From Rhodospirillaceae bacterium (GTDB lineage: Bacteria; Pseudomonadota; Alphaproteobacteria; SP197), in NCBI GenBank assembly GCA_002722885.1, contig PBNE01000006.1:147690-211689 (forward strand): 64,000 nt of DNA. Reading direction: 5' to 3'. Shown in pieces: positions 8,373 through 45,032 of the stretch. Each line of letters starts with the position of its first letter. The first letter of the stretch is position 1. The position numbers and the translations under genes are program-made. The notes under the pieces were generated by a model. The model saw only the letters and a program-made list of their open reading frames with translations, had not been told where the DNA came from and made no database searches.

Positions 8373-10613
8373 TCAGAAGGGTGCGGGATCGCAGAACCGC
8401 CGGATCACATTGGACGTCAGAACGGCTATGGTGTTCTGGAAGTTGTTGCAGGGAAGGGCCGAGACATAGGTGATGGAGCCGGTCGCAAAGACCGCGCCGC
8501 CTTGGGCAGTCTCGAAGAACATCATGTCAGCGCGAATCTGCGGGTTGATCGAGCCATGGATGCGCGGGTGCATGTGGCCGATCTCCTCGTTGACCAGAAG
8601 CACGGTGTCGGAGTGGTCGAAGCTCGAAGCCACCACCAGCGCATGGGGAGGCGTACCCCGTTCGGGGTTGGCGCAGTCAAGCTCCCAGCCTGCCGCGCCG
8701 CCGCCCAACAGCCCGGTGTCGCCCACGAGATCGCCGTCGATGCCCTCGAACATCCAGGCGGCACGCGGGTCACGGCCCTGCTTGGTGATCCGGTAGGGAC
8801 TCGACCAGTCAAAGCCTTGGGCGATGAAGCCATTGCCGACGAGCTTGTTGGGCGCCCGCCCGGCATGCCACCACAGGCCGCCCATCTCGCCGGTGAAACT
8901 CATGTAGTATTCGCCGGGTTCGGCAATCCACGAGCGGGAACCGTCCTCGGCTCGGCGCATCTCGATCACACCGGGTTTGTCGGGATTATAGGCGACACGC
9001 CAGTAGAAGCCGTTGCCGCCCATATACATCAGCCGTCCGCCCTGGCCGGTGAACGCCTCATAGGCATCGAGCATCCGGGTCGAGGTGTACTCGGGATGGC
9101 TCATGGTCATCACGCAGGGCCACTGCTTCAGCAGATCGACGCCTTCGCGGTCGATGTCCTCATCGGTGATCATGTCGTAGGCGATGTCTTCATGCTCCAG
9201 CCAGGCGATCAGGTGCATGTCGGCGGAAAGCTGCCAGAGCGAGTTGTGCGTCGGTGAGAAGTTTACGACCGGGCGAAGGCGCGAGCTGTAGTGCGGGCCC
9301 GACCCATCCGCGTGCAGGCCATACATCGACATGCCGATCTCGGGATGATCGTTCTGATACAAATCGTCGGGTCCCATGCGGGCGACGCGGTTGAACTGGA
9401 AGTCGTAGCCGGGATCGAACGTTTCATCGATGTTGGCATAGGCGAGATAGCTGGCATCGGGCATCACGACGCAGAGCGGTGCAGTGGTCTCGCCTTTCCG
9501 AGGCCGCACGACAAAGGGCACAAACTCGGCCACGCTGCCCTCACGCTCCAGCTTCGCTGCATAGAGGCCGCTGCGGACATCAGCTGGAAGGGTGGCCTCG
9601 ATGTCGGTCTCCCAGCCGCAGTCGTAGATCGCGTCTTCCACGACATAAAGCGCACCCCACTGTTCCGGGGCATCGGTCCAGCGATGTTGCGTCGTGTCCC
9701 AGTTGTGGCCGGTCTTGGCGCGCATCGGCAGGTTGACGGCTTCGCCATCGATGCCGTTGCCAGAGATATCGGCCAAGCGGTCGGTTGAGATGTCGATCGA
9801 AAAATCCCAGGCAATCACCACGCGGTCTTTCAGGCCCTCGGGCATGGGGCCTGTGGTCAGGGCCATAACTTCATCGTCGCCGAGCAGGCCGTGGCTGACG
9901 ACCGGCCGTTCCAGCTTGCCGTTGACATGGCCGCCCGGGAACCAGGGCGTGATGTTGTCGCGGTGGTTGTAGGCGCCCGCCATGAAGGCCGCGGTGTGAT
10001 TGTGCGGCGAGGCCACGGTCGAACCATCGGCGGTGGCCTCACAGCGCTCAGGGAGCGTGGCGTGAGGTTGGATCATCCGCTGGACGATGCGCAGCTCCTT
10101 CGTGTCGGCATCATAGCTGCCGGCCAGCAGATACCACTGGCGTGCGATCAGGGGCTCCGGTGCGGCGACGCGGGCGGTGGTGTGGTCGTTGCCGTCGCCG
10201 ATGAAGAAACAGGCATGGCCGTCGCCGTTGGTGAAGAGGCCCCAGCCGTGTTCGGTCGACTCGTCGAACTTGGAAACGATGGATTTCCAAGGCCGCTCCG
10301 GAGTCGTCGGCCAGAACAGGATCTGGACCGTGAAACTCTCCAGCGTCTCGAAGGCCGCATGATGCGGGGCGATGCCGTGAGAGCCGGGGAAGATGCGCTG
10401 GTGCCGCGCCGGGTAACGGCCGTTGGCGGCAAGGTCGACGGTTTCGTCGCGGTAACCGGGGCCGGCGGGTTGATTATCGCCCGACAGCAGGCGCACGATG
10501 GTGGCCCCGAACTGATCGGGCCCGCCCTCGTCGCAATTGACCCTAATGGCGATGGTATCGCCGGGTTCCACCGAGATCTTGTCGGCATAAGCGCCCAGTG
10601 TCTTGACCTGCAT
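8373..10613 (-). CDS. N,N-dimethylformamidase large (beta) subunit-like protein with LamG-like region
   Basis: 746 aa; LWQLSADMHLIAWLEHEDIAYDMITDEDIDREG.DLL and TMSHPEYTSTRMLDAYEAFTGQGGRLMYMGGNGFYWR motifs. Confidence 0.8.
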   Translation of the reverse strand: MQVKTLGAYADKISVEPGDTIAIRVNCDEGGPDQFGATIVRLLSGDNQPAGPGYRDETVDLAANGRYPARHQRIFPGSHGIAPHHAAFETLESFTVQILFWPTTPERPWKSIVSKFDESTEHGWGLFTNGDGHACFFIGDGNDHTTARVAAPEPLIARQWYLLAGSYDADTKELRIVQRMIQPHATLPERCEATADGSTVASPHNHTAAFMAGAYNHRDNITPWFPGGHVNGKLERPVVSHGLLGDDEVMALTTGPMPEGLKDRVVIAWDFSIDISTDRLADISGNGIDGEAVNLPMRAKTGHNWDTTQHRWTDAPEQWGALYVVEDAIYDCGWETDIEATLPADVRSGLYAAKLEREGSVAEFVPFVVRPRKGETTAPLCVVMPDASYLAYANIDETFDPGYDFQFNRVARMGPDDLYQNDHPEIGMSMYGLHADGSGPHYSSRLRPVVNFSPTHNSLWQLSADMHLIAWLEHEDIAYDMITDEDIDREGVDLLKQWPCVMTMSHPEYTSTRMLDAYEAFTGQGGRLMYMGGNGFYWRVAYNPDKPGVIEMRRAEDGSRSWIAEPGEYYMSFTGEMGGLWWHAGRAPNKLVGNGFIAQGFDWSSPYRITKQGRDPRAAWMFEGIDGDLVGDTGLLGGGAAGWELDCANPERGTPPHALVVASSFDHSDTVLLVNEEIGHMHPRIHGSINPQIRADMMFFETAQGGAVFATGSITYVSALPCNNFQNTIAVLTSNVIRRFCDPAPF

Positions 10614-41260: not shown

Positions 41261-42115
41261 ATGGCTGACGCCATCGCAGGCATCGACCATCTCCTGATCG
41301 ACAGTTCCGATCTGGAAGCTGACCGTACGGTCTGGGAGCGTCTCGGTTTCACCATGACGCCACGTGGGCGTCATCCCCAGTGGGGAACCGGCAACTACTG
41401 CACCATGTTCAATCAGGGTTATCTGGAACTGATCGGTGTCGTTGATGCCGCTGAGTTTGCTGCCAACGCGTCCCGACGGGGCTCGCGGAAGCAGGGTCCG
41501 GGGTTGTCGGCCATCGCCTTTGCCACGGCAGACGCTTATGCCGCGCGCGACACTCTGGTCGAGGCAGGCATTGCTGCTGACAGCACCAAGGATCTCTCGC
41601 GCCTGCTGGAGGGCGACGAAGGCACCACCGAGCCCCGGTTCGACATCCTTCATCTTCCGCCGGACGCGACTCCGGCCACCCCGATGTTCCTGTGTCGGCA
41701 TCGCACACCTGACCTCGTGCGTCGGCCCGGCTGGATGGATCACGCCAATGGCGTCACAGCGATTCTCTCCGTGACCGTGCCGGTGAGCGATCCCTTGGCC
41801 ATGGTGAGCCATCATGAGCGGCTTGTGGGTCCGTCAGCGGTCGCGGTGACTGATGAAATTGTCACGCTCCATCTGGGCCATGAAACGGTCATGCTTGCAC
41901 GGCACGACGACCTTCTGGCGCTTTATCCCGAACTTGTCCCGGAAACCGATGATGGTGCGTGTCCGGCCGTGGTGACTCTGTCCGTCGCGGACCTAGAGGC
42001 GACAACGGCCTATCTCCGCGGCGCCTCCGTCCCGGTTGTCCGTGATGCGCGGGCGGTGATGGTCGCTGCCGAAGACGCCTGTGGCATCGCGATGGTGTTC
42101 GAACAGGCGCCCTGA
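41261..42115 (+). CDS. VOC family (glyoxalase-like) protein
   Basis: IDHLLIDSSDLEADRTVWERLGFTMTPRGRHPQWGTGNYCTMF. Confidence 0.8.
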   Translation: MADAIAGIDHLLIDSSDLEADRTVWERLGFTMTPRGRHPQWGTGNYCTMFNQGYLELIGVVDAAEFAANASRRGSRKQGPGLSAIAFATADAYAARDTLVEAGIAADSTKDLSRLLEGDEGTTEPRFDILHLPPDATPATPMFLCRHRTPDLVRRPGWMDHANGVTAILSVTVPVSDPLAMVSHHERLVGPSAVAVTDEIVTLHLGHETVMLARHDDLLALYPELVPETDDGACPAVVTLSVADLEATTAYLRGASVPVVRDARAVMVAAEDACGIAMVFEQAP

Positions 42116-43165
42116 ACCTCTCGATCGTGAGGTCTGGTTGTTCTGCGCGTCGGCCTCATCGGCGACGTGCCTGGCCGCTGAACCTGCAATGGCATTGCGT
42201 TCCTCGCTCGTGAGCGGGCGATCAAGATTCTCTTCTCCGATCCTGACCGTGACCTCTCGGTTGGCGAACTTGATTCCGTTCTCCGCGAACAGCTCGCGGA
42301 TCTTGGCAAAGACGACGCGTCGCAACATCCACTGATCATCGGGTCGGGTCATGAACTTGATCGACATGATCTGAGCTGAATCTTCCATCTGGACCACGCC
42401 CTGGGACTTCAGACGCTGCAGGAACTGCGGTACAAGCTCTGGATCTTCCAAAAGCTTCTGCCCGAGCTTCTTGTTCAACTTGCGGGCCTTTTCGGCATCG
42501 GTGTCATAGGTCAGCCGCAGGGGCAGCATCATAATCGCCCAGTCACGGGACAAGTTGGTGACGTGACCGATGTCGCCGAAAGGCACGGTGTTCAACGGGC
42601 CCCGGTGATGGCGCAACTGCATGGATCGCACAGAAATCTTCTCCAGAGTGCCGTTGATGCTGCCGATGTCGATGTACTCACCCTTGCGGAAGGCGCCGTC
42701 GATCAGGAAGAACACGCCCGAGACGATGTCCTTGACCAGGGTCTGGGCGCCGAAACCCACCGCGAGACCCACGACGCTCGCGCCGGCCAGGAGCGGCAGA
42801 ACATTGACGCCCAGTTCGCGGGACACCCAAATGGCATCTTCACTGGGCAGGACAAACTGGCCGCCCTGGCTCATGCGTCGGGTGACAGCCTCGACCACGG
42901 CGGGCGTGCCATAGCCGGCTGTGCTCGACATGTCGCCCTGGTTGAAGTCGACATAACTGTGGCCGTCGATGTCAGTGAAGTGGGCGCCACTGCCCTTATC
43001 GACGTAGATGGTCGCGTGGTGGGTCAGCCTCCGCATCCAGGCCATCGGCACGCCAGAGGGCATGACCTCTGTAGCTTCCTCGACCAGCTTGGCCGAACGG
43101 GGACGGGATTGACTGAATCGTGCGTTTTCCCGCGCGATCAGCTCGGCAATGGTACTTCTGTTCAT
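41993..43165 (-). CDS. Chimeric ORF: N-terminal class-III aminotransferase fragment fused to MscS channel C-terminal domain
   Basis: NRSTIAELIARENARF...SEDAIWVSREL (GSA-like aminotransferase N-terminus) continues directly into GVNVLPLLAGASVVGLAVGFGAQTLVKDIVSGVFFLIDGAFRKGEYI (MscS); TM1-2 of MscS and the aminotransferase core are absent. Confidence 0.75.
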   Translation of the reverse strand: MNRSTIAELIARENARFSQSRPRSAKLVEEATEVMPSGVPMAWMRRLTHHATIYVDKGSGAHFTDIDGHSYVDFNQGDMSSTAGYGTPAVVEAVTRRMSQGGQFVLPSEDAIWVSRELGVNVLPLLAGASVVGLAVGFGAQTLVKDIVSGVFFLIDGAFRKGEYIDIGSINGTLEKISVRSMQLRHHRGPLNTVPFGDIGHVTNLSRDWAIMMLPLRLTYDTDAEKARKLNKKLGQKLLEDPELVPQFLQRLKSQGVVQMEDSAQIMSIKFMTRPDDQWMLRRVVFAKIRELFAENGIKFANREVTVRIGEENLDRPLTSEERNAIAGSAARHVADEADAQNNQTSRSRGSGRLFEHHRDATGVFGSDHHRPRITDNRDGGAAEIGRCRL

Positions 43166-43376
43166 GGAACAAACTCCTTCGCCTGACGCCATAAGGGCGT
43201 CATGTCGGAGACCCTGTGATCTCCAAGGGGACAGGAAGAGCCGGAGGCAGCCGGACTCGTCGAGGAAGCGATTAGAGAGTCGCCGTGAACACGATGGTCA
43301 GCATAAATCCTGTCCGGTGACGTTGTGCCCCTGTCCTGATGGCGCGCGGGGGTCGGGAGCGTCAACCGGTCGGGCC

Positions 43377-43921
43377 GTGAGCTTTCGCGAACGCTACCTC
43401 AATCGACACATGCTGCTGGAACTGGGCCCGGCGGCGGTGTTCTTCGTGGCGAACCATGTCAGCGATCTGATGACCGCGACCGCGGTTGTGATGGCGGCCA
43501 CCGTTCTGACGACTGTTCTGGGTTTTGTCTCGCGGCACTCGGTGCCCGTTCTGCCCCTTGTCACCCTGGCGCTGGTTCTGATCCTGGGCGGCGCAACACT
43601 GGTCTTCCATGTCGAGCTCTTCATCAAGATCAAGTCGACGATCGGAGGCCTGTTGTTCGCAGCAGCGCTCGTTTTCGGACTCTTTTTGGAGCGTTCGCTG
43701 CTCGAACGAGCGCTGGGTTATCAGGTCTTTCTCACTAGGGAAGGCTGGCTTGTCCTGACCTGGCGCTCGTCACGGCTGTGATCAACGAGATGGCGTGGCG
43801 GACGCTGTCGACCGACGCCTGGGTCACGGTGGAGACGATCGAAACACCGGCGTCGATCGTCTGCTACATCCTGATCACGCGTCTGACCGCGCCACGCTAC
43901 TGGAACGGACCCGATCCCTGA
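43377..43921 (+). pseudogene. Septation protein A / inner membrane-spanning protein YciB-like, frame-disrupted
   Basis: MLLELGPAAVFFVAN...LFIKIKSTIGGLLFAA...REGWLVLTWR in one frame, then ALVTAVINEMAWRTLSTDAWVTVETIETPA...RYWNGPDP* in another. Confidence 0.7.
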
Positions 43922-43931
43922 ACCCTCGTGT

Positions 43932-45032
43932 CTAGACGTTGAAGCGGAACAGCAGGACGTCGCCGTCTTTGACGCGATAGTCGCGGCCTTCCTGGCGCAT
44001 GCGTCCGGCCTGCTTGGCACCCTGTTCACCGCTATGGCTGACGTAGTCGTCGAATCCGATGGTCTCGGCACAGATGAATCCGCGCTCGAAATCGGTGTGG
44101 ATCTCGCCGGCGGCCTGCGGTGCCGTCGAACCATCCCTCACGGTCCATGCCCGGGCTTCTTTAGGACCGGCGGTGAAGAAGGTGATGAGCCCCAGCAACC
44201 GGTAGGCCGCGCGGATCACCCGGTTCAGACCGGGCTCCGAAAGACCGAGATCTTCCAGGAAGACGGCCTTGTCCTCGGCCTCTTCAATTTCGGCAAGCTC
44301 CGATTCGATGCGCGCGGAGATCACAACCGCCTGGGCACCTTCTTGTGCCGCCCGCTCGGCCACCTTCGCCGTGAGCGCGTTGCCGTCGGCGGCTTCGCCT
44401 TCATCAACGTTGCAGACGTAGAGCACCGGCTTGGATGTCAGAAGCTGGAGCATGGCAAAGCGTTTGGCCTCGTCGGCCGAAACCTCAATGCTGCGCACCG
44501 GCTGGCCCTCGCGAAGCGCTTCCATCGCCCGTTGTATGATCGGCAGGTCGGCCTTGGCGTCACGATCGCCGCCGGTGGCGCGTTTGGCGGAAGCGTCTGC
44601 GCGTTTCTCAAGGCTTTCGAGGTCCGACAGCATCAGCTCTGTGTCGATCGTGTCGATGTCGCGCAAGGGGTCGACGGAGCCTTCGACGTGGCTAATGTTA
44701 CCGCTCTCGAAACAACGCACGAGATGGATGACAGCATCGACCTCCCGAATATTGGCGAGGAACTGATTGCCCAGGCCTTCGCCCTGGCTGGCGCCACGGA
44801 CCAGACCGGCGATGTCGACAAACTCAATGCTGTTCCACACCACTTTCTGTGGTGTGACGATACCGGCAATGGTCTCCAGCCGCTCATCAGGCACGCTGAC
44901 ACGGCCGATGTTAGGGTCGACCGTGCAGAATGGGAAATTGCCAACCTGCGCAGCTCCGGTTGCCGTGAGCGCGTTGAAAAGGGTCGACTTGCCGACATTG
45001 GGCAGGCCCACGATGCCGCATCGAATGCCCAT
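43932..45032 (-). CDS. ychF: Redox-regulated ATPase YchF (OBG family GTPase-like)
   Basis: MGIRCGIVGLPNVGKSTLFNALT; GLVRGASQGEGLGNQFLANIREVDAVIHLVRCFE; TGS-domain end VSHSGEQGAKQAGRMRQEGRDYRVKDGDVLLFRFNV. Confidence 0.96.
   Translation of the reverse strand: MGIRCGIVGLPNVGKSTLFNALTATGAAQVGNFPFCTVDPNIGRVSVPDERLETIAGIVTPQKVVWNSIEFVDIAGLVRGASQGEGLGNQFLANIREVDAVIHLVRCFESGNISHVEGSVDPLRDIDTIDTELMLSDLESLEKRADASAKRATGGDRDAKADLPIIQRAMEALREGQPVRSIEVSADEAKRFAMLQLLTSKPVLYVCNVDEGEAADGNALTAKVAERAAQEGAQAVVISARIESELAEIEEAEDKAVFLEDLGLSEPGLNRVIRAAYRLLGLITFFTAGPKEARAWTVRDGSTAPQAAGEIHTDFERGFICAETIGFDDYVSHSGEQGAKQAGRMRQEGRDYRVKDGDVLLFRFNV

Follow-up and report, generated by a model that had tools for sequence, protein, structure and literature searches.

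An in-frame aminotransferase–MscS chimeric reading frame in a Rhodospirillaceae bacterium, most likely a relic of a recent deletion between short repeats

Class III aminotransferases of the PRK07046 type, which are glutamate-1-semialdehyde aminomutase-like (PF00202; solved structures 5ykr and 5ykt), have a full fold with a PLP-binding lysine, and large MscS channels of the YbiO-like type (PRK11465; PF00924 and PF21082; solved structures 7a46 and 9go3) combine a pore helix, a beta domain and a C-terminal domain with further membrane segments, the outer helices TM1-2 of MscS being described as the tension sensor (PMC7378837). In bacterial deletions between short direct repeats, the intervening DNA is lost and a single repeat copy remains, and segments lost in this way have been described as products of illegitimate recombination at short homologies (PMC2884548). 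A 64,000-nt stretch of DNA from Rhodospirillaceae bacterium (GCA_002722885.1, contig PBNE01000006.1, positions 147,690–211,689 of the forward strand; hereafter the window) contains a reading frame in which the start of such an aminotransferase is joined to the end of such a channel. The features of the locus are given below, with the sister genome G002 as the reference for the separate genes.

41993–43165, minus strand: chimeric ORF of 390 codons from the ATG at 43165, with Pfam and NCBIfam domain matches
42809–43165, minus strand: aminotransferase remnant, residues 1–119 of a 446-aa class III aminotransferase, with the start and a GGAG ribosome-binding-like stretch kept
42809–42817, minus strand: junction, GAACTGGGC, 9 bp common to codons 117–119 of the G002 aminotransferase gene and codons 550–552 of the G002 MscS gene
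42158–42817, minus strand: MscS remnant, residues 550–769 of a 775-aa YbiO-like channel, which span the pore helix TM3, the beta domain and the C-terminal alpha/beta domain
41993–42157, minus strand: C-terminal tail, 54 codons and stop
41261–42115, plus strand: VOC/glyoxalase-like gene, intact, with synteny kept in G002, G009 and G003
43377–43912, plus strand: yciB (septation protein A-like), frameshifted near 43767–43774
43932–45032, minus strand: ychF GTPase gene, intact and syntenic

The frame is uninterrupted over 41993–43192 and could be read as 399 aa from an ATG at 43192 or as 390 aa from the ATG at 43165, of which the latter is the better start because it coincides in the alignment with residue 1 of the intact aminotransferase homologue and has the GGAG stretch before it. 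HMM libraries and PDB sequences split the product cleanly, with aminotransferase to about residue 127 and MscS over about 123–320 of the 399-aa form. In the same numbering, the NCBIfam transaminase model PRK07046 covered residues 9–127 (E 3.9e-32) and the mechanosensitive channel model PRK11465 residues 123–316 (E 9e-35). Within Pfam, Aminotran_3 matched residues 58–108 of the chimera slightly below its gathering score (E 1.9e-6), and MS_channel_2nd/3rd matched residues 151–309 (E 3.6e-14 and 1.6e-6), with PF00924 and PF21082 above cut-off. The N-terminal part was 72% identical to residues 1–119 of the aminotransferase in G002 and 75% identical to those in G005, and the MscS part was 83% identical to residues 550–769 of the G002 channel. 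A chance open frame is ruled out, since the halves are 72–83% identical to two separate intact genes of a sister genome.

Comparison with nine other genomes of the same genus located both of these genes in an unfused state. G002 contained an intact aminotransferase gene (446 aa, L117 7181–8521) and an intact MscS gene (775 aa, L117 8581–10908) on the same strand and about 60 bp apart, with yciB, ychF, pth, rplY and prs beyond the aminotransferase gene and VOC, apt, mtnP, cytc1 and cytb beyond the MscS gene, in an order identical to that of the window. The G002 ychF appeared to be frameshifted near codon 234, with matches in two frames (L117 5931–6045), possibly a sequencing error in that draft. 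G005 encoded an intact aminotransferase followed by MscS residues 1–548 up to the contig end, and a G009 contig starting inside MscS encoded the MscS C-terminus followed by VOC. Both contigs (C36 of G005, L119 1; C504 of G009, L118 1) break inside MscS at no more than about 100 bp from where the window has its junction, roughly two codons ahead of it in G005 and roughly 33 in G009; the conserved pore helix may tangle the assembly there, or strains may vary at this point. The aminotransferase gene of G004, G010 and G015 adjoined ychF or VOC/apt, and no MscS was found between them; apart from the window, MscS was seen at this locus in G002, G005 and G009 only.

The two halves meet in nine shared bases, because aminotransferase residues 1–119 (43165–42809) and MscS residues 550–769 (42817–42158) overlap in GAACTGGGC, which encodes Glu-Leu-Gly in both parent genes. 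Its two G002 copies, at L117 7529–7537 in the aminotransferase gene and 10228–10236 in the MscS gene, are 2,699 bp apart and lie exactly at the breakpoints of the window, which itself keeps one copy at the junction, as expected of a short-repeat deletion. Repeats of at least 9 bp between the two G002 genes amounted to only 21 pairs (12 with matching codon phase) among approximately 3.1 million position pairs, and we estimate that a random junction would land on such a pair, each having up to ten equivalent positions, with a probability of about 7e-5, that is, less than one in a thousand. The copies in relatives differed by one base in the G005 aminotransferase gene and by two in the G009 MscS gene. 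We infer that the repeat existed in the window's own ancestor, the ancestral state being represented by the sister genome G002 and not by the same species.

Because both G002 genes are intact, adjacent and share the 9-bp repeat at the junction, a short-repeat deletion is the simplest origin of the chimera, and a recent loss of approximately 2.7 kb between adjacent intact genes, leaving an in-frame and most likely non-functional relic, very probably explains the locus. In the ancestor, a YbiO-like MscS gene would have lain downstream of a class III aminotransferase gene on the same strand, both of them intact, and a deletion of about 2.7 kb between the two GAACTGGGC copies would have produced one in-frame ORF, with replication slippage or end joining at the short homology as the likely route. 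The locus resembles described deletions in its 9-bp repeat at the breakpoints, its single remaining copy and the absence of the intervening DNA (PMC2884548); unlike them, both breakpoints are coding and in the same codon phase, and the remnant stays open. The original prediction had placed an aminotransferase-III::MscS chimeric gene at 41993–43165, which the Pfam/NCBIfam split and the separate intact genes of G002 now support; its in-frame junction, expected near 42815, was located at the Glu-Leu-Gly codons 42817–42809, and the microhomology-mediated deletion that it proposed at an (E/R)EL(G) stretch agrees with the adjacent intact genes and the repeat common to both breakpoints. The two comparisons that it recommended gave separate intact genes in the same synteny (G002) and, for the halves taken separately, a match of each to its own intact gene, with the same fusion in no relative.

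The fusion was absent from 15 other genomes of the family (16 including its own), from 387 genomes of the class and from 96 relatives' genomes, and none of the best 80 loci in a GTDB-wide scan had the fusion or an aminotransferase beside MscS. Matches to query 11–211 in G001, G004, G006, G007 and the own genome's C13 were rejected as fusions, since each proved to be an intact aminotransferase whose alignment was carried across the junction by weak similarity. A literature search for aminotransferase–MscS fusions and for chimeric genes made by deletion returned nothing to the point.

The lost DNA, about 2.7 kb altogether, takes in the last ~327 codons of the aminotransferase gene, everything between the two genes and the first ~549 MscS codons. 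On the aminotransferase side, residues 1–119 of 446 fit the N-terminal sequence of the PF00202 family, as the PRK07046 match indicates, and the full fold is missing together with the GKNVAGG motif of the G002 enzyme, assigned from the family as the PLP-lysine motif. On the MscS side, the pore helix TM3, beta domain and C-terminal domain are present, whereas the TM1–TM2 tension sensor is gone. Of the nine hydrophobic segments in the G002 channel, eight fall in the lost part, so that the pore helix is the only one in the chimera. Loss of the PLP-lysine core and of MscS TM1-2, as first proposed from the sequence, is thus supported. With no PLP lysine, and with the pore helix as its sole MscS membrane helix, the product would be expected to have neither parent activity.

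The age of the deletion was approached through selection on the retained codons. On the window's branch, omega was 0.17 (95% 0.07–0.37) for the aminotransferase part and 0.096 (0.05–0.17) for the MscS part, both within the range of the flanking intact genes (0.03–0.21), although synonymous distances near or above 1 make these values rough. In relative-rate counts the aminotransferase half was not clearly accelerated, and the MscS part had a mild surplus of window-specific changes when set against G002 (9–20 vs 3–7, depending on the outgroup), which was mostly not seen against G009; thus, no clear accelerated evolution of the kind that would mark an old pseudogene was found in omega or in these counts. 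The retained codons of both halves still bear the mark of purifying selection, and the deletion is therefore probably recent; use of the product would be a less likely reason. Most simply, almost all of the divergence would predate the deletion. The relatives' MscS stop codon is missing in the window, where the frame reads on into the convergently oriented VOC gene at its 3′ end, and the first few codons of the tail may be the counterpart of the relatives' final MscS residues. The missing stop codon may be decay or an older difference and, like the mild MscS rate excess, is a weak sign of decay.

Among the three outcomes initially offered for the chimera, the decayed or non-functional fusion is favoured, as a recent one, over an assembly chimera and a soluble fusion. 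An assembly chimera, by which the organism would have both genes intact and the contig would skip 2.7 kb, is improbable. The genome is a draft of 23 contigs with 8.66% contamination, the adjacent yciB is frameshifted, and the region may assemble poorly, as contigs of G005 and G009 end close to the junction position; but the identity at the junction is only about 9–11 bp, and usual assembly k-mer lengths far exceed this. Moreover, the skipped parts were found nowhere else in the own genome, either as a close copy or as a second intact allele, the nearest paralogues being a more distant aminotransferase on C13 (46%) and a more distant MscS on C14 (26%). The reading frame is preserved across the junction, and other genes over ~24–50 kb of the window comparable with relatives otherwise looked unbroken.

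It is less probable still that the chimera is expressed and kept as a new protein under selection, with the aminotransferase segment replacing the MscS membrane domain on the pore helix and cytoplasmic cage to give a soluble or single-helix MscS-like oligomer that would serve as a scaffold or a dominant-negative partner. The open frame, the native start with its ribosome-binding-like stretch, the low omega of both halves and the confidently modelled C-terminal MscS domain would fit such use, but the open frame and low omega fit a very recent deletion as well; no relative searched carries the fusion, the product has lost the catalytic core and keeps a single hydrophobic segment, and in G003 the aminotransferase of this locus has decayed on its own. 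An AlphaFold model (mean pLDDT 58.9) was confident over the first ~33 residues and the MscS alpha/beta domain at about 211–300 (pLDDT 92–97) and poor over aminotransferase residues 38–107 and the pore helix/beta domain at 135–206 (pLDDT <50), which is weak evidence because the alignment was shallow and each of its rows covered one half only. The idea that the N-terminal part simply extends a normal MscS, which would have overturned the fusion call, had nothing found in its favour and is almost certainly wrong, since MscS relatives have a membrane N-terminus of their own (775 aa in G002) and the first 119 residues of the chimera are 72–75% identical to a separate aminotransferase gene.

A recent deletion relic would make this locus a clear example of a chimeric reading frame that seems to have arisen in one step by short-repeat deletion, with the ancestral arrangement kept in a sister genome. 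It is also a warning that domain-fusion calls from single draft genomes, here of an aminotransferase with a channel, may reflect fresh relics instead of functional links.

The locus itself appears to be dispensable in the genus, as G003 has no MscS here and its aminotransferase gene is broken. On a 905-kb contig of that genome, the syntenic place is occupied by an aminotransferase pseudogene (L136 6354–7100) that directly abuts VOC, with a frameshift near residue 30, an internal loss and an end near residue 263. The window's yciB, which is intact in G002, G005 and G003, has a net deletion of 16 nt relative to G002, and its remainder lies in another frame. Taken together, the decay in G003 and the yciB frameshift favour erosion over gain of function. 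Beside the aminotransferase locus of G010, apt and VOC were each matched twice (L122 794–6090), forming two apt–VOC pairs in opposite orientation, a duplication.
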